NCBI GenBank assembly: GCA_003056085.1
Contig: LSNK01000002.1
Span: forward strand, 174,575-207,056
Length of the DNA: 32,482 nt
Direction: 5' to 3'
From: Parcubacteria group bacterium M6-OD1-1
GTDB lineage: Bacteria > Patescibacteriota > Minisyncoccia > GWC2-36-17 > M10-OD1-4
The notes below the pieces were generated by a model. It saw only the letters and a list, made by a program, of their open reading frames with translations. It made no database searches and had not been told where the DNA came from. Position 1 is the stretch's first letter, and every line of letters starts with the position of its first letter. Position numbers and translations under genes: made by a program. This document shows positions 180 through 30,371 of this stretch, one piece after another.

Positions 180-698
180 CTAAAATTCAATTCCTCGTTT
201 TGCCTTAATATTTTTATTAAAAGGATGCTTTACGTCCTTCATTTCTGTCACTAAGTCCGCCGTATCTATTAACCACTTCGGTGCATTCCTGCCTGTCAAA
301 ATTAAATCTGCGCCTTTTTTATGTTTTTTTAAAAAATCCTTTACTTCATCTTTTTTTATTAGTTTTAAATCCATTGCATTATTTATCTCGTCCATTATTA
401 CAATGTCATGTTCCCCTCCAGAAATAGCATCTTTACACATCTGCCATGTTTTTTCTGCAGCTTTTTGATGTTCTTCTATTTTATGCTGATCCCCCAATAT
501 TCCAACAAATCCAATACCTCCTTTTACTAAAGAAAAATCAGGGGAAAGTCTTTTTGAAGACTCGTCTTCCCCTGATTTAAATGGTCCTTTTATAAATTGT
601 ATCATTATAACTTTTTTCTTCTCTCCCACCGCGCGCAAAGCCTGACCCAAAGCAGCCGTTGTTTTTCCTTTTCCATTTCCGGTAAACACCGAGATCAT
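180..698 (-). CDS. btuR: ATP:corrinoid adenosyltransferase (CobA/CobO/BtuR family)
   Basis: 172 aa; N-terminal P-loop MISVFTGNGKGKTTAALGQALRAVG, VIMIQFIKG, DIVIMDEINNAM, LILTGRNAP motifs typical of CobO/BtuR. Confidence 0.9.
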   Translation of the reverse strand: MISVFTGNGKGKTTAALGQALRAVGEKKKVIMIQFIKGPFKSGEDESSKRLSPDFSLVKGGIGFVGILGDQHKIEEHQKAAEKTWQMCKDAISGGEHDIVIMDEINNAMDLKLIKKDEVKDFLKKHKKGADLILTGRNAPKWLIDTADLVTEMKDVKHPFNKNIKAKRGIEF

Positions 699-748
699 AA
701 ATTTAAGTTTTTAGAAATTTAGCATCAGTCAATATGGAAATCAATCTT

Positions 749-868
749 ATAATTTCCAAAATTTAGAATAGTTCGAGAAAAAAGTGAGGAACGAAATAAG
801 TCGTACTGAATGTACGGTGTTGAGTATCTGAACTTTTGACGAAGAGATATTCAAATTTTAGAAATTAT
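749..868. repeat. Dispersed structured intergenic repeat, copy 1
   Basis: Terminal imperfect inverted repeat ATAATTTCCAAAATTTAGAATAG / ATATTCAAATTTTAGAAATTAT; core GTTCGAGAAAAAAGTGAGGAACGAAATAAGT with inner stem CGTAC-tgaat-GTACG; similar to copies at 7659, 18317 and 24586. Confidence 0.7.
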
Positions 869-3105
869 ACAATCTCGCAAAGACCGGCAACACAAGCAAG
901 CTCCTTTGCCAACTCAGTCTCATCTTCAATTTCATAAGATACAATTTTTGAAAAATCAAGTTTAGGAAATTTCTTCACCATACTTTCATAAGTTTCTTTA
1001 TCTATTGTTTCATAGGGAGCCAACTGATAAACATGATCGTCTCTGGGTAAAAATGAAAGCCCTCCAACTAAATCCCAGTTGTCGTAAATCCAATCGGCAA
1101 CATCTATCCATTCTTTATCGCTAACTGAAATCGTTACGGAAGGATTATGTTCTGTAAAATTTTCTTTTACAAGCTTCCAATGCTCTAATTGGTCTTTTGC
1201 GGTAAGATCATTTTTGAAAATTGACCCTTTCGGAGCTTTGACCGGAAATTCCAAAACATAGGTATTGGCATTTATTTTTGATTGACCAACTTCAGGATGA
1301 TACGGAACTCCTTGATCCTTTAACATTTCAAATAGCGGATCTGTAGCGGATATCCTTACCCTTCTTATATAATATTGGGAATGTCTCGGATGCATCCCGG
1401 AAGAGGAATCTACGGTTTGTGATACTGTTCCCGACGGCTTCACGCATGTAACGCAAGTTGACTGGTTAATACCGAATTTCTCTGCATATTGTTTATTTGT
1501 CTTAACAGCCTCTTTTTTTAACTTATTTAAAATATCTCCGTTTCTGGCAGCTTCAGAATCCCACTGACCGGTTATTGAAACTCCGAGTAATCTTTCTTTT
1601 TTACAATTTTTCTCCCACTCATTTGATATATATCCAAAGTTAGTCAGCGTTGACTGGTAAGTTCCTAAAATAGCCGCCAATCTTGCTTTTCTAAGAAGAG
1701 ACTTTTCATCGTCATTTGACCTTGCCACAACTTCTGATAAATTACAAAACTGTTTTGATTGAAGTATTATTTCCCCGCATGGATTTGTCCCCAAACGACT
1801 TATGTCGCCCTTTAAAGAAGTTAAACGTCTTTCCGGCAATGTCCCTAAAAGCCCCCCTCGGTTAAATATTCCTCTCTCTCCGGTGCCTGATTTCATTAAT
1901 GAAATCCATTCATCTAAAAAATCAGTAGTTCTCGGTTTTGAAAAATAAACCGCCGAATTATTAGCCATACTTCTTTGGGGTTCCGTAAGATAAAACTGCC
2001 CTTTTTTAGAGTCTCTTACTTCGTTATCATCAAGATCAGAAAGTGATATTAAAGCACTCCTGCGCACTCCACCGGAAACCACCACTTCTCCAATTTTACA
2101 AACTATATCATGAACATCTAAATTACTCAGACGCCTGCCTTGTCTTTTAAGTATTTTTTCTCTTGTAAACTCAAGTACATTTCTTAAAGGATCCGGTCCG
2201 GAAGATCTTCCACCCATTATCTTCAATTTTGCTCCTGCGGGTCTTAACTTTGAAAAATCAAAATCAACATCCTTGCCGGAAAACCAAGTTTTTATTCCAT
2301 ACACCAAAGCATCAGCCCAACCTTCTTTACTATCAGGAATAACATGAGTCGTTAATTTTTTACCGCTTTGAACTTTTATTTGAGGCAGAGCCTGAACATT
2401 TTGACTTTCAGCTGAAAAACCTACACCTGCTCCACACATCAATATATACATAATCTCTCCAAAATCTTCAAGTTTGGATGGAGCGATAAAAGAACAATTA
2501 TACGCGCAAACATTTGTTTTCCTTGCAGCATCTCCGGCAAACTGCAAAAGCCTCATAGACGGCATAACTTCTTGATTTAAAATAGCTTCTCTTAATTCTT
2601 TATGAGTCTTTTGAGAAAGTTTGTCACCAAGATTTTCTTTCATGAAATCCATATATCTATCAACCGTTTCAATCCAAGTTTCTCTTCTGCCTTCCTTTTC
2701 TATCCATCTTGCATATGTCCTATAATAAACAAATTCAGCAAGCTGGTTTTTAAAATATTTTTTACTCTCCAAAGAAAGTTTTCTTACATGCTCCGGAGCC
2801 TTAATGCCCTTTTTCCTTAGCTCAGCTCTTTTGCTTCTATATAAAATATATGCCTTTGCAACATCCGTATAACCTTCAAGCATTAAAGTTATTTCAACCA
2901 AATCCTGCACTTGCTCAACCGTAGGAATATCTCCGGCAAATTTACTCTCTATTAATTTTGTAACTTTTTTAGATATGCTGCCAATTATTTTATCATCATG
3001 TTTATCTAAAGCTAAAAATGCTTTTGAGATAGCATTTTCTATTTTTTTCGGATCAAATTTTACTACTTCTCCTATTCTTTTTTGAATGTTTTTAATTGGT
3101 GGCAT
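865..3105 (-). CDS. nrdJ: Adenosylcobalamin-dependent (class II) ribonucleoside-triphosphate reductase with N-terminal ATP-cone
   Basis: 746 aa; ATP-cone-like N-terminus, CAYNCSF, GRRSSGPDP-like and NPCGEI motifs, C-terminal Cys pair CVAGLC; monomeric RTPR-like architecture. Confidence 0.88.
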   Translation of the reverse strand: MPPIKNIQKRIGEVVKFDPKKIENAISKAFLALDKHDDKIIGSISKKVTKLIESKFAGDIPTVEQVQDLVEITLMLEGYTDVAKAYILYRSKRAELRKKGIKAPEHVRKLSLESKKYFKNQLAEFVYYRTYARWIEKEGRRETWIETVDRYMDFMKENLGDKLSQKTHKELREAILNQEVMPSMRLLQFAGDAARKTNVCAYNCSFIAPSKLEDFGEIMYILMCGAGVGFSAESQNVQALPQIKVQSGKKLTTHVIPDSKEGWADALVYGIKTWFSGKDVDFDFSKLRPAGAKLKIMGGRSSGPDPLRNVLEFTREKILKRQGRRLSNLDVHDIVCKIGEVVVSGGVRRSALISLSDLDDNEVRDSKKGQFYLTEPQRSMANNSAVYFSKPRTTDFLDEWISLMKSGTGERGIFNRGGLLGTLPERRLTSLKGDISRLGTNPCGEIILQSKQFCNLSEVVARSNDDEKSLLRKARLAAILGTYQSTLTNFGYISNEWEKNCKKERLLGVSITGQWDSEAARNGDILNKLKKEAVKTNKQYAEKFGINQSTCVTCVKPSGTVSQTVDSSSGMHPRHSQYYIRRVRISATDPLFEMLKDQGVPYHPEVGQSKINANTYVLEFPVKAPKGSIFKNDLTAKDQLEHWKLVKENFTEHNPSVTISVSDKEWIDVADWIYDNWDLVGGLSFLPRDDHVYQLAPYETIDKETYESMVKKFPKLDFSKIVSYEIEDETELAKELACVAGLCEIV

Positions 3106-7658: not shown

Positions 7659-7782
7659 ATAAATTTCATATTTTAGATGCAGATTGAGGTAAAAACTATG
7701 AGTGAAATTGAGTCGTACTTACAGTACGATGAAATAAACAAATAGTTTTTAACGACGAGATGCTCTAAAATTGAAATTTATT
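7659..7782. repeat. Dispersed structured intergenic repeat, copy 2
   Basis: Arms AAATTTCATATTTTAGATGC / GATGCTCTAAAATTGAAATTTA; core GATTGAGGTAAAAACTATGAGTGAAATTGAG; inner stem TCGTACT-tac-AGTACGA; overlaps the hisS stop codon. Confidence 0.7.
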
Positions 7783-9094
7783 TTTTTAAATGATTTTTAA
7801 TCACTTTAACTATCTTCTCTATCGGAACAGTCTCCTGAGCTCCTGTTTCCATATCTCTTAAAATAATATCTCCGTCTATTGCTTCTTTTTGACCTATAAT
7901 TAAACTCATTTTTGCGCCAAATTTATCTGCTATGCGAAGCTGGGAAGACAAACTATTTCTACCAAAAGATTCCATTACATGCAAGCCCGCCGATGAAAGA
8001 TCATCAAAAAGCTTGAGGCTCTTTTTCTTTCCTAAATCTCCAACCTGAACTAAAAATATCTGTGATTTAAATGGATTCGCCACTTTCACCCCCTGTTTTT
8101 TCATAAGGTTTATAACTCTTTCCATACCAATTGCCGCACCAACCGCTGGAGTATCTTTTCCGCCGACTATTTTTATCAATTTATCAAATCTTCCGCCACC
8201 ACCCAAAGCAAGTTTAGATCTTCTGTGAGCCTTCTCACTTCCTCCTTCTGAATGCTCATCTTCCAAGAAAACCTCAAAAACGGTTTTTGTATAATAATCC
8301 AAACCTCTTACAAGATGCGGATTGAGTGAATAAGGTATTTCAAGTTCATCTAAAAATTCTAAAACTGACTTAAAGTGGTCGTGGCATTCTTTACACAAAC
8401 TATCTATTAAAGTTGGAGCATTTACTTTTATCGGCTGGCATTTTTCTTCTTTACAATCCAAAAGTCTTAAGGGATTTGTTTTAATTCTTTTTTTGCAATT
8501 TGTACAAGCTCCTTTTATTCTTGACCTGTAATATTTTAAAAGCTGACTTCTGTAACTTGGGCGGCATTCTTTGCATCCTATGCTGTTTATCTCAACATTC
8601 AGATTTTTAAGCTTTAAACTGTAACATGTTTTTACAAAAACATTTATTATCTGAGCATCATAAACAGGATCCATATCCCCAAAAATTTCAAAACCAATTT
8701 GATGAAACTGTCTGAATCTTCCGGACTGCGGTTTTTCGTACCTAAACATAGGACCAATATAATAAAGCTTTACCGGCTGGGGTAAGTTTGCCATTCCGTT
8801 TTCAATGTAAGCTCTTACAACGCTTGCTGTTCCTTCCGGACGCAAAGCAACACTGTCTTTGCCTTTGGTTTTAAAAACATACATCTGTTTTTCAATAATG
8901 TCTGTGGCCTCACCAACAGATGTGACATAAAGATCTGAATTCTCAAAAATAGGAGTGTCTATTCTTCCAAATCCATAATGCAAAGCAATGTCTCTGACCA
9001 CATCTCTCACTTTATTCCAATATTTTTGTTCTTGAGGCAAAATATCAAAAGTTCCCTTAGGAGTTTGAAATGTTTTTTTGGGTTTTCTTGACAT
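7778..9094 (-). CDS. hisS: Histidyl-tRNA synthetase
   Basis: PKGTFDILP, MFRYEKPQSGRFRQFHQIGFEIFG, LVRGLDYYTKTVFEV, class II motifs. Confidence 0.97.
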   Translation of the reverse strand: MSRKPKKTFQTPKGTFDILPQEQKYWNKVRDVVRDIALHYGFGRIDTPIFENSDLYVTSVGEATDIIEKQMYVFKTKGKDSVALRPEGTASVVRAYIENGMANLPQPVKLYYIGPMFRYEKPQSGRFRQFHQIGFEIFGDMDPVYDAQIINVFVKTCYSLKLKNLNVEINSIGCKECRPSYRSQLLKYYRSRIKGACTNCKKRIKTNPLRLLDCKEEKCQPIKVNAPTLIDSLCKECHDHFKSVLEFLDELEIPYSLNPHLVRGLDYYTKTVFEVFLEDEHSEGGSEKAHRRSKLALGGGGRFDKLIKIVGGKDTPAVGAAIGMERVINLMKKQGVKVANPFKSQIFLVQVGDLGKKKSLKLFDDLSSAGLHVMESFGRNSLSSQLRIADKFGAKMSLIIGQKEAIDGDIILRDMETGAQETVPIEKIVKVIKNHLKK

Positions 9095-14699: not shown

Positions 14700-14713
14700 T
14701 CTCGCAAAAAATT

Positions 14714-14746
14714 AACAACTTTGGGGACGGTCGTCCCAAAGTTGTT
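14714..14746. repeat. CGACCG-apex palindrome H1
   Basis: AACAACTTTGGGGACGGTCGTCCCAAAGTTGTT; reverse complement matches H2/H3 closely. Confidence 0.8.
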
Positions 14747-14807
14747 ATTGGGTTTTTTATTTTAGATTAAAAATGTTTTGAAAAAAATAAAGCAACACAA
14801 TAAATCG

Positions 14808-17327: not shown

Positions 17328-18182
17328 ATGCAAGAATTAAAAATAAAAGATAAAAACTTTCCGGAATCTTTAAAAAATATTCCAAAACCTCCGAAAAGAA
17401 TTTTCGTGCGAGGAGATATTTTGCAGGAAGACAAAACTGCAATTGCAATAGTTGGAGCGCGCAAGTGTTCTTCCTACGGAAAACAAACGGCATACGACAT
17501 TGCTTATGCTCTTGCAAAAAATGGAGTAACTATAATCTCGGGACTTGCTTTGGGGATAGACGGAGAAGCGCACAAAGGAGCGCTTGATGCGGGAGGCAGA
17601 ACACTCGCTATTTTGGGAACAGGTATTGACGATAATTCAATTTACCCTTACTCTCATAAGTCACTGGCAGAACGCGTTTTAAAAAACGGCGCCTTAATAT
17701 CAGAATACGAACCGGGAACTCCTGCCCTACCCCACCAATTTCCGGAAAGAAACAGAATAATCTCCGGGCTTTCACTTGGAGTTTTAGTGGTTGAAGCAAA
17801 AGAAAGAAGTGGGTCGTTAATTACGGCACACATAGCGCTTGAGCAAGGAAAGGATATTTTCTCAATACCCGGACCGATACATTCTCCAAGCTCAAAAGGA
17901 ACAAACAAACTGATACAGCAAGGAGCAAAACTTGTAACAAAACCTGAAGATATTTTGGAAGAGCTTGAACTTTCAGGAATTGAAATAAAAAAGAAAGAAG
18001 TGAATTTTTCAAAAGAAGAGAAAAATATTTTAAAAATATTGGAAACGGAAGCAATACACACAAACGACATAATAAGAATATCTAAAATGCCGACAAGTTC
18101 CGTCCTTACGACAATAACAATGCTTGAGATGAAAAAAGTGATAAAAGATGTTGGTGGAAATATGTACGTTGTAAATTTATAA
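17328..18182 (+). CDS. dprA: DNA processing protein DprA/Smf
   Basis: AIVGARKCSSYGKQTAYDIA, TIISGLALGIDGEAHKGAL, ISEYEPGTPALPHQFPERNRIISGLSLGVLVVEAKERSGSLITAHIALEQGKDIFSIPG. Confidence 0.97.
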   Translation: MQELKIKDKNFPESLKNIPKPPKRIFVRGDILQEDKTAIAIVGARKCSSYGKQTAYDIAYALAKNGVTIISGLALGIDGEAHKGALDAGGRTLAILGTGIDDNSIYPYSHKSLAERVLKNGALISEYEPGTPALPHQFPERNRIISGLSLGVLVVEAKERSGSLITAHIALEQGKDIFSIPGPIHSPSSKGTNKLIQQGAKLVTKPEDILEELELSGIEIKKKEVNFSKEEKNILKILETEAIHTNDIIRISKMPTSSVLTTITMLEMKKVIKDVGGNMYVVNL

Positions 18183-18316: not shown

Positions 18317-18441
18317 TTAGAATTTTTAAAATTAAGCATAGTTTGAGAAAAAAACGAGGAGCGGAATGAGCCGCAGTTTTACTGCAACGAGTGAGCACCA
18401 GAGTTTTTTACGAAAAAATTTGCCAATTTTAGAAATTATAA
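18317..18441. repeat. Dispersed structured intergenic repeat, copy 3
   Basis: Core GTTTGAGAAAAAAACGAGGAGCGGAATGAGCC; inner stem GCAGT-ttt-ACTGC; arms TAGAATTTTTAAAATTAAGCATA / ATTTGCCAATTTTAGAAATTATA. Confidence 0.7.
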
Positions 18442-18445
18442 ATAT

Positions 18446-20611
18446 ATGAAATTAGTTATCGTAGAATCCCCTTCCAAAGCAAAGACAATTGAAAAATATT
18501 TGGGGGCTGATTATAAAGTTCGCGCATCTGTCGGACATGTTCGTGATCTTCCAAAAAGCAACAAAAAAGCAATTGATATTGATGCCGGTTTTGTGCCCTC
18601 TTATGAAATATCAAAAGGAAAAGAAAAGATCGTCAAAGAACTAACGGAATTGTCAAAAAAAGCAAACGAGGTGCTGCTTGCAACTGACCCCGACCGTGAA
18701 GGAGAAGCTATCGCTTGGCACATTAAAGAGGCTTGTAATATAAAAAATCCAAAAAGAGTAGCTTTTCACGAGATAACAAAAGATGCTGTTTTGGAAGCGA
18801 TGACTCATCCAAGAAAAATAGATGACGACTTAAAAAAAGCGCAGGAAGCAAGAAGAGTTTTAGACAGACTTGTCGGATATGACCTTAGCGGTCTTATTTG
18901 GAAAAAAGTTCGATATGGACTTTCCGCAGGAAGAGTTCAATCCCCCGCCTTAAGAATAATCATGGAGCGGGAAAGAGAAATACGCGCATTTTCACCGGAA
19001 GACTTTTGGACAATAACGGCTAATGTTGAAAATAAAAACAAAGAAAAATTTACTTTAGTATGTTCAAAAGAGTCAAGAGATGAAAAAGAAGTGGATAAAA
19101 TTTTATCTTCCGGAGAAAAAAATGAATGGTTTGTAAAAGACATAAAAGAATCCGAAGTAAAACGGTCCACTCGTCCCCCTTTTACAACTTCAACCCTTCA
19201 GCAAACAGCCAGCACAAGACTCGGGTTCGCCCCATCAAAAACAATGGGAGTTGCCCAAAAACTTTACGAGGCCGGACTTATAACATACATGAGAACCGAC
19301 AGCACAACATTGAGTCGTCAAGCTCAAAAACAAATACTAACTTTAATCAGCAAAAAATTCGGCAAAGAATATGCTTCTGAAAATTTTTTCAAAACAAAAA
19401 GTAAAAATGCCCAAGAAGCTCATGAAGCTATCAGACCCACAAACTCAACAAAAGAAATTGCAGGAGCAACAGAAGAACAAAAAAAACTTTATAAACTCAT
19501 ATGGCAAAGAACCGTTGCTTCCCAAATGCAAAATGCGAAACTCTTAAGAACAAAAATAACCGCAAACATCAAAAATGACATCATTCCGGACTTTAACACG
19601 ACCGGATCAAGAATTATTTTTTTAGGTTGGCTTGCAGCAGACCCGGGAGCAAAAGGTGAAGACGTTATATTGCCTGAAGTTAAAAAGGACGACATGCTAA
19701 AACTTCTTTTGATAGAAAAAGAACACAAACAAACCCAACCTCCTTTCAGATACACAGAAGCCGGTCTTATTAAAGAACTTGAAAAAAGAGGTATTGGAAG
19801 ACCATCAACCTATGCAAGCACTATAAAAACAATAGTTGACAGAGGTTATGTAGAAAAAGAAAACAGAACGCTATTTCCTACAGACACAGGAGATGTTGTA
19901 AGCACATTTTTGGAGAATAATTTTGCCAACTATATATCAGATACATTTACAGCCGAAATGGAACAGGAGTTAGACGATATTTCAAACGGAAAAAGAGAGT
20001 ACGCAAAAACATTGAAAGATTTTTATGGACCATTTCAAAAAGAAATTAAATCAAAAGAAAGCATAGAAAAACTAACTACTTTGGGTGATGTGGATGAGAA
20101 AATAAAATGCCCGAAATGCAAAAGCAAAATGGTTATCAAGCTTTCAAAAACCGGCAAATTTATGAGTTGCTCTACATTTCCAGATTGTGCCGGAGCAAGA
20201 ACTATGGAAGGAAAAGAGCTTGAAGGACCAAAAGAAACAGGAGAAAAATGTCCGAAATGCGAAAAACCTTTAGTTCAAAAAGAAGGAAGATTTGGTAAAT
20301 TCATCTCCTGTTCAAACTACCCTAAATGTAAATTCATAAAAGAAGATGAGGAGGAAAAAAAGAAAAAAATGACCGGAGTTGAATGCCCCGATTGCAAAAA
20401 AGGAGAAATAATGGAAAGACGAGGACGCTTTGGACTTTTTTACAGTTGTTCCGACTACCCCGACTGTAAATTTGCAATGAAAGCAAAACCGACAGGAAAA
20501 AAATGTCCGGATTGTGAAGCTTTAATGATGGAAGGAACAAAAACAATCCCCGAGCGCTGCTCAAAAAAAGAATGCCCCAATCACAGACCCGATAAGAAAA
20601 AATCTTCGTAG
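18446..20611 (+). CDS. topA: DNA topoisomerase I with C-terminal zinc fingers
   Basis: MKLVIVESPSKAKTIEKYLG, TDPDREGEAIAWH, LITYMRTDSTTLS, C-terminal Cys4 repeats. Confidence 0.98.
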   Translation: MKLVIVESPSKAKTIEKYLGADYKVRASVGHVRDLPKSNKKAIDIDAGFVPSYEISKGKEKIVKELTELSKKANEVLLATDPDREGEAIAWHIKEACNIKNPKRVAFHEITKDAVLEAMTHPRKIDDDLKKAQEARRVLDRLVGYDLSGLIWKKVRYGLSAGRVQSPALRIIMEREREIRAFSPEDFWTITANVENKNKEKFTLVCSKESRDEKEVDKILSSGEKNEWFVKDIKESEVKRSTRPPFTTSTLQQTASTRLGFAPSKTMGVAQKLYEAGLITYMRTDSTTLSRQAQKQILTLISKKFGKEYASENFFKTKSKNAQEAHEAIRPTNSTKEIAGATEEQKKLYKLIWQRTVASQMQNAKLLRTKITANIKNDIIPDFNTTGSRIIFLGWLAADPGAKGEDVILPEVKKDDMLKLLLIEKEHKQTQPPFRYTEAGLIKELEKRGIGRPSTYASTIKTIVDRGYVEKENRTLFPTDTGDVVSTFLENNFANYISDTFTAEMEQELDDISNGKREYAKTLKDFYGPFQKEIKSKESIEKLTTLGDVDEKIKCPKCKSKMVIKLSKTGKFMSCSTFPDCAGARTMEGKELEGPKETGEKCPKCEKPLVQKEGRFGKFISCSNYPKCKFIKEDEEEKKKKMTGVECPDCKKGEIMERRGRFGLFYSCSDYPDCKFAMKAKPTGKKCPDCEALMMEGTKTIPERCSKKECPNHRPDKKKSS

Positions 20612-24445: not shown

Positions 24446-24715
24446 AAGGGTATAGGATTTAAATATAATCCAATTTAGAATCTAAAAAATAAGATGACCT
24501 TAGAGTGCAATGACAGTAGAATGACTTTATTATATTGAAAAGAAGCAATGGGAAAATCTGTTATTTAGCTTCCCGGAGGGCGGGTCAATTTTAGTCATAT
24601 TTCTTCGTTACTCGTCGCTTATGATACATAAAAGTATCGCTTCACTCCTCGTGTCTCGAATATAACTAAAATTGCCTCCGCTAAATTGATTCTATTTAAA
24701 TCCCATACCCTTTTT
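24446..24715 (+). ncRNA. Candidate structured RNA or MITE-like element bounded by a roughly 33-nt inverted repeat
   Basis: AAGGGTATAGGATTTAAATATAATCCAATTTAG pairs with CTAAATTGATTCTATTTAAATCCCATACCCTTT; TTGACA (24409) / TATAAT (24430) upstream; T-run at the 3' end. Confidence 0.4.
24586..24674. repeat. Dispersed structured intergenic repeat, copy 4 (opposite orientation)
   Basis: Arms CAATTTTAGTCATATTTC / GAATATAACTAAAATTG; inverse complement core ATTCGAGACACGAGGAGTGAAGCGATAC; inner stem GATAC/GTATC. Confidence 0.65.
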
Positions 24716-24802
24716 GCCGGAGTGATGAAATTGGTAGACATGCACGACTCAAAATCGTGTGGAGGCAACTCCATGAGGGTTCAAGTCCCTCCTCCGGCAC
24801 CA
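24716..24802 (+). tRNA. tRNA-Leu (anticodon CAA), CCA encoded
   Basis: Class II tRNA: GCCGGAG acceptor, anticodon loop CTCAAAA, variable arm GTGGAGGCAACTCCAT, TTCAAGTCC T-arm, CTCCGGCACCA. Confidence 0.95.
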
Positions 24803-29495: not shown

Positions 29496-29539
29496 CCAAT
29501 GACAACTATGGGGACGACCGTCCCTATAGTTGTCATTGG
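29496..29539. repeat. CGACCG-apex palindrome H2
   Basis: CCAATGACAACTATGGGGACGACCGTCCCTATAGTTGTCATTGG. Confidence 0.9.
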
Positions 29540-29604
29540 ATGATTTTTCTATTATAATTTAAATAGAAAAATAGAAGATATTAAAAAAATTAATGTTATA
29601 AAAA

Positions 29605-30230: not shown

Positions 30231-30272
30231 CAATGACAACTATGGGGACGACCGTCCCTATAGTTGTCATTG
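30231..30272. repeat. CGACCG-apex palindrome H3
   Basis: CAATGACAACTATGGGGACGACCGTCCCTATAGTTGTCATTG, identical to H2 over its length. Confidence 0.9.
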
Positions 30273-30371
30273 GGGGGTTATTTAAAATATTAAACTAATT
30301 GATTTTTGGATTTATTTATTATAGTATTTAAAAGATTAATCTCCCTACAACCTGCTCAACTCATCTTAAAT

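Follow-up and report, generated by a model that had tools for sequence, protein, structure and literature searches.

Several described mobile palindromes resemble the element that we report here. The RUP of pneumococcus, reviewed in PMC2229807, is a MITE proposed to be mobilised by IS630-Spn1. Like RUP as portrayed there, our element is short, non-coding, multi-copy and hairpin-forming, and it has its terminal repeats in common with a transposase-supplying insertion sequence (IS). Unlike RUP, it has IS701-type ends and a 5-bp target duplication where RUP has TA, an interior conserved across a phylum, and a preference of fixed polarity for stop codons. The same source describes ERIC/IRU of enterobacteria as a 127-bp imperfect palindrome and mentions a reported orientation-dependent effect of ERIC on upstream mRNA. 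Our element agrees with that description in its length, in being an imperfect palindrome from end to end and in its intergenic position, but its host belongs to another phylum, and no sequence relation was noted in a comparison made without alignment. With the GTAG/CGTC-tagged REPs described in PMC3733652, it shares the form of dispersed palindromes in intergenic DNA; those repeats are 20-40 bp long with an unpaired tag, whereas the element is about 120 bp long and has fully paired ends and no tag. The (C/T)AGGACTTACGCA terminal repeat and the 5-bp target duplication are shared with the ISPlag1 group of IS701 insertion sequences (NF049921), from which the element differs in having no transposase gene and an interior that bears no relation to the IS ends with which it was compared (those of L336 and L371). 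Literature searches found no description of the element family, and an Rfam search returned no relevant match to it.

The family consists of non-coding hairpin elements of about 120-165 bp with many copies per genome. In our judgement its members are probably non-autonomous cut-and-paste transposons (MITEs) with IS701-type ends and a conserved structured core, retained at stop codons. The window, by which we mean the whole 32,482-nucleotide stretch of DNA analysed, holds four copies (Table 1). A preliminary description had taken four of its intergenic segments for members of one family of shared layout with at least four copies, and a covariance-model search of the own genome shows all four to be genuine: over about 714 kb of this 766-kb genome, extending up to the last 52 kb of contig C3, the model (R1) found 30 copies at E<0.01, of which 24 also reach E<1e-9. 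R1 was built from an alignment of 18 sequences (A3) that includes copies 1-3 of the window, whose match is therefore partly by construction; copy 4 stands outside the training set. BLAST with copy 1 alone as query retrieved copy 3 and two copies beyond the window (E 1e-13 to 6e-10), and model searches of related genomes yielded further copies there as well. The layout given in the preliminary description also holds, with an outer inverted repeat of about 18 bp, a bulged A, purine-rich cores and an inner hairpin that varies yet stays paired. The 5' core is present as described, but its consensus is looser than had been quoted (copy 2 reads GATTGAGGTAAAAACTATGAGTGAAATTGAGT).

Table 1. Copies of the hairpin element in the window, with the parts of copy 1 (positions in the window).
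Feature	Positions	Strand	Remarks
Copy 1, full-length	748-869 (R1 match 749-868)	+	R1 E 1.6e-23
Copy 1, outer stem, left arm	749-766	+	Pairs with about 852-868
Copy 1, 5' purine-rich core GTTCGAGAAAAAAGTGAGGAACGAAATAAG	771-800	+	Alternating short helices and G/A mismatch loops
Copy 1, inner hairpin, around CGTACTGAATGTACG	801-816	+	Covaries between copies
Copy 1, 3' core, around CTTTTGACGAAGAGAT	834-849	+	Partner of the 5' core
Copy 2, full-length	7659-7781	+	R1 E 2e-16
Copy 3, full-length	18319-18439	+	R1 E 4e-24
Copy 4, short degenerate variant	24584-24676	-	R1 E 3.2e-4

Copy 1 lies between nrdJ, the upstream gene on the minus strand, and a cobO/btuR-like gene, and it has an orthologue in the congener G001 (L123:3912-4034). 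It had been said to end on the nrdJ stop codon, and this codon (865-867) indeed falls inside its right tip; the naming of nrdJ as a B12-dependent reductase is backed by Pfam. We note that in this part of the window (180-3105) the next gene after nrdJ (B12-dependent ribonucleotide reductase) encodes a corrinoid adenosyltransferase, and that copy 1 lies between the two. The right tip of copy 2 overlaps the stop codon of the opposite-strand histidyl-tRNA synthetase gene (7778-9094). Copy 3, between a dprA-like gene (17328-18182) and topA (18446-20611), belongs to a minority class at start codons, its right tip lying 6 nt upstream of the topA start, and copy 4, which has no A/T helix, is near a tRNA gene (24716-24799). 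The window also contains a second palindromic repeat family (14710-14761, 29497-29548 and 30231-30282), with hairpins centred on GACGGTCGTC/GACGACCGTC. This second family numbers 17 hairpins in the genome sequence searched, and its arms are of two types, either TGACAACTTTGGG or GTAGCATATGGT, which starts with GTAG; the genome in which it occurs has five Y1 transposase matches.

Read 5' to 3' on the purine-rich strand, the outer stem of about 18 bp has the consensus TARRAYTTNNNNATTTG, and its sequence varies between copies while pairing is kept. Inward of it come a bulged A, a five-pair stem and TTC/GAA, followed by a core of short helices split by purine-rich mismatches (for example CGAG/CGAAG and GGAA/TGAC), most of them tandem G/A, and an inner hairpin whose usual form is GTA...TAC. 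Full-length copies carry the tip consensus T-A-R-R-A-Y-T at both ends. A kink-turn reading of the G/A loops was rejected, the second strand not being consistently GA. Every tested copy folds better than 200 of 200 dinucleotide shuffles, and the 18-sequence alignment gives one fold with at least one double change in 36 of its 41 predicted pairs. In larger alignments of 77 and 76 copies, which were fitted to the covariance model and so lean towards its structure, 93.8% and 92.3% of cells are paired (67-68% in shuffles, about 33-45% with slid partners), double changes occur in 42 and 43 of 44 pairs, and the covariation score is 0.706 against 0.21 for shuffled and about 0.10 for slid controls. The covariation claimed for the inner stem is thus strongly confirmed, and it extends over the whole hairpin of about 44 pairs, outer repeat included. 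With further copies and covariation both clearly present, the family is more than a chance resemblance among AT-rich segments. Purines make up 84-86% of the unpaired columns, which exceed the paired ones in conservation. Some lineages (L316-L322, L278, L332) have an extra GC-rich hairpin in the 3' outer arm, such as GACCCGGCTTTGCCGGGTC. Others (L272, L274, L277) join the same core to quite different outer arms, such as CCTAACGTTCAGCTGCAG, which suggests drift or an exchange of ends.

The element occurs in 18 of the 54 relatives searched and in at least 47 of 381 sampled Patescibacteria genomes, the latter a lower bound obtained with strict filters, and reaches 31 copies per genome (in G028). 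When named genomes were scanned by pattern and the hits checked against the model, members appeared only in records of Patescibacteria lineages or in bacterial MAGs, the lineages being Azambacteria, Gracilibacteria, Magasanik-, Moranii-, Doudna-, Yanofsky-, Sung-, Specht- and Nomurabacteria. Outside Patescibacteria, none of 149 genomes had the element, 18 further genomes gave no solid match (one at E 0.004), and a third set of 146 genomes had one positive (L376 on contig C398 of G457). This single copy is well-formed and GC-rich, on a GC-rich contig outside the phylum of the window. It may reflect contamination or transfer; because it looks genuine, Patescibacteria may not be the only hosts of the family. 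The plasmid and phage collections searched contained no homologues. A link to viruses was discarded, as the single pattern match among viral contigs failed the covariance model.

The ends of the element point to a particular family of transposases. In two related genomes (G209 and G315) near-identical copies sit at unrelated sites and have the tips TAGGACTTACGC...GCGTAAGTCCTA. When the five bases before the leading T are compared with the five after the trailing A, 9 of 13 of these copies show a perfect 5-bp target duplication, a count that was at most 6 in 5000 shuffles. Among the relatives searched first, 8 of 41 copies match at four or more of the five bases, with 1.65 expected. In the window, copy 3 matches at four of five, and no duplication was seen for copies 1, 2 and 4. 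A TA-only (IS630-like) duplication, suggested by the TA at both tips, gave way to the 5-bp duplication in recent copies. The terminal pattern TAGGRCTTACGC occurs 64 times in G209 and its reversed form not once; in Azambacteria the tips have diverged (TARAACTTTC). Insertion sequences of the IS701/ISPlag1 type have TAGGACTTACGC as their terminal repeats: in ISPlag1 and its relatives from Moraxella and Paraburkholderia, the ends read (C/T)AGGACTTACGCA and are flanked by 5-bp duplications (TTCAA, GAATA, ACCTC). An IS-sized pair of such tips (L336) in G379, on a short contig that could be mis-binned, encloses a 338-aa transposase of the IS701 family (NCBIfam NF049921, E 6e-100), and G301 has another IS701-type IS (L371) with CAGGACTTACGCATTTT ends. 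At one place in G054 (L312:4586-4820) the tip of an element contains two more palindromes that look like nested insertions.

Inspection by eye showed no hairpin core near the ends of L336 or L371, and the interior is thus not derived from the IS in those two. Many MITEs have no IS-derived interior, and a resident autonomous partner is not strictly required for a MITE. The NF049921 transposase was found in none of the 54 relatives, own genome included, and above cut-off in only two of 34 other element-positive genomes, and no gene flanked by two half-elements, as in an autonomous copy, turned up in the DNA examined. Given the IS701/ISPlag1-type ends of the element, transposases of that type are the most likely agents of its movement, acting in trans where they are present. 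As NF049921 is missing from the own genome and from most positive ones, we infer this mobilisation from the ends only, and it was probably episodic.

Filled and empty orthologous sites are found in congeneric genomes. Two genomes of one genus (G028 and G054) differ at several sites with the 3' end of the gene intact on both sides, as at ...CAAAAATTC-TAGAAC... (filled) and ...CAAAAATTTTAA... (empty); the stop-abutting empty sites in this pair show no clear 5-bp duplication. The copies that G001 has at GAPDH and at two further genes are missing from G000, as is a G002 copy; the copies at nrdJ and ftsX are common to G000 and G001. Together with the target duplications and the IS701-type terminal repeats, these sites support the MITE-like character proposed in the preliminary description. 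Orthologous copies surpass the far intergenic flank in conservation in eight of eight pairs, weakly so at C3:5909 (0.41 vs 0.37), and in most of the eight the conservation of the element is comparable to that of the adjoining coding DNA. Compensatory changes are seen at one locus among these pairs; the apparent compensation in pair e (G054) resembles replacement by the sequence of another family copy.

Position relative to genes was scored for 88 good copies drawn from 14 genomes. In 51 of them an opposite-strand gene has its stop codon no more than 6 nt from the right tip, and two show the mirror arrangement; of the intergenic TA sites in G000, about 8% are equally near any stop. The purine-rich strand in this main class is antisense to the abutting gene, and the genes next to copies are unrelated (nrdJ, hisS, topA, ftsX, GAPDH). 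In ten of the 88 the right tip is near a start codon, as it is for copy 3 at topA. Only 4 of 19 recent copies have the right tip at an opposite-strand stop (Fisher p 0.005), in a comparison of sets from different lineages in which the recent copies are not independent. That recent copies abut stops much less makes selective retention likely, and retention rather than a targeting of stops is supported, short of proof. Along contigs, the C-rich strand carries the purine strand of 24 of 27 copies in the own genome, a same-strand bias that start-abutting copies also follow. The bias was considered as a replication signal and is largely explained by leading-strand genes together with elements at gene ends.

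The preliminary description had also offered a structured RNA family, and the MITE interpretation is the better of the two. A structured RNA as such is not supported, given an orientation to genes that is not cis-regulatory, the unrelated neighbours, the lack of an Rfam match and an outer stem without a preference for G-U. For a cis-regulatory RNA or riboswitch, no fixed same-sense position upstream of one gene class was found, copies being mostly 3' and antisense. Across three alignments, mispairs in the outer stem are G-U in 140 cells and A-C in 136, and this equality suggests that outer pairing is kept at the DNA level. Core pairs, in contrast, have more G-U than A-C, and as RNA the purine strand gives a better fold than its complement in each of the four copies tested. 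It is conceivable, if rather doubtful, that the core is a functional RNA or single-stranded DNA hairpin used at gene 3' ends, which transposon ends merely spread. The covariation would then exist because of selection on the fold; the 93.8% of cells paired, the double changes in 42 of 44 pairs, the purine-dominated loop columns more conserved than their paired neighbours, the excess conservation of all eight orthologous pairs over their far flanks and the compensatory changes at one locus would all be in keeping. An outer stem that is not RNA-like, the antisense orientation of the main class, the patchy distribution (47 of 381 genomes) and the likeness of pair e to another copy argue against it. 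We are similarly hesitant about a transposon-borne core with tandem G/A motifs that IS701-type ends have spread through the Patescibacteria and that is kept at stops because its folded form, as RNA or single-stranded DNA, would benefit the host, for example by setting mRNA 3' ends or stability where a genome has few other means of regulation. Alternatively, the covariation may be mainly mutational, through quasipalindrome correction during replication or gene conversion between copies. This is compatible with a MITE, and we take it seriously while stopping short of calling it probable. Double changes whose intermediates are scarce (CG 46, UA 20, AU 6, UG 2 in one instance), the symmetry of G-U and A-C in the outer stem and pair e all fit such an origin, under which covariation would say little about selection. 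The G/A mismatches, however, stay uncorrected and are the most conserved part of the element, so correction alone cannot be the whole story, and exchange between copies leaves their persistence equally unexplained; these mismatches are the main reason that a functional core stays under consideration.

Two other proposals were also weighed. If the elements were bidirectional transcription terminators of the abutting genes, their location at stop codons, the A-tract/hairpin/T-tract layout of many copies and the longer leftover intergenic space between tandem genes (median 145.5 vs 71, p 0.018) would be accounted for. We consider this unlikely, as the A/T helix is swapped for other pairs in some copies, the sole terminator-like site in copy 1 is a 5-bp inner stem, a start codon follows some copies after only 6-9 nt, and the element does not have the GC stem followed directly by a conserved U-tract of an intrinsic terminator. 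Repeats of REP type, moved on single-stranded DNA by a Y1 (RAYT/IS200-like) transposase, would explain the same-strand bias, here 24 of 27 copies, and would suit the long hairpin and the five Y1 matches of the own genome. This origin is very improbable: five element-bearing genomes (G014, G015, G044, G046, G052) have no Y1_Tnp match, the element ends carry no GTAG tag, and the target duplications in recent copies largely refute it. Y1 enzymes are not known to make 5-bp duplications.

As a MITE with AT-rich targets, the element would insert by cut-and-paste, generating a 5-bp target duplication, and IS701/ISPlag1-type transposases, when present, would move it in trans. Many copies would be lost after insertion. 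Most survivors would directly abut a stop codon, their purine-rich strand running antisense to the gene, probably since a copy in that place does no harm or is mildly useful. It is possible that the benefit, if any, is an ERIC-like effect on upstream mRNA. For a MITE, conservation of the interior across a phylum is unusual, as are outer arms that drift yet stay complementary and the polar preference of one tip for stop codons.

The genomes of Patescibacteria are very small and should shed useless DNA. The element nevertheless persists in these streamlined bacteria at up to about 30 copies per genome, and some copies have stayed beside the same gene in species that share only about 77% protein identity. 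Its ends and target duplications link a palindromic repeat to a transposase family. The family also carries a caution for RNA discovery, as a mobile palindrome can give overwhelming covariation whose cause may lie partly at the DNA level. The polarity at stop codons makes it possible to test whether selective retention followed insertion. The most interesting point, in our view, is that a streamlined phylum keeps a conserved core.
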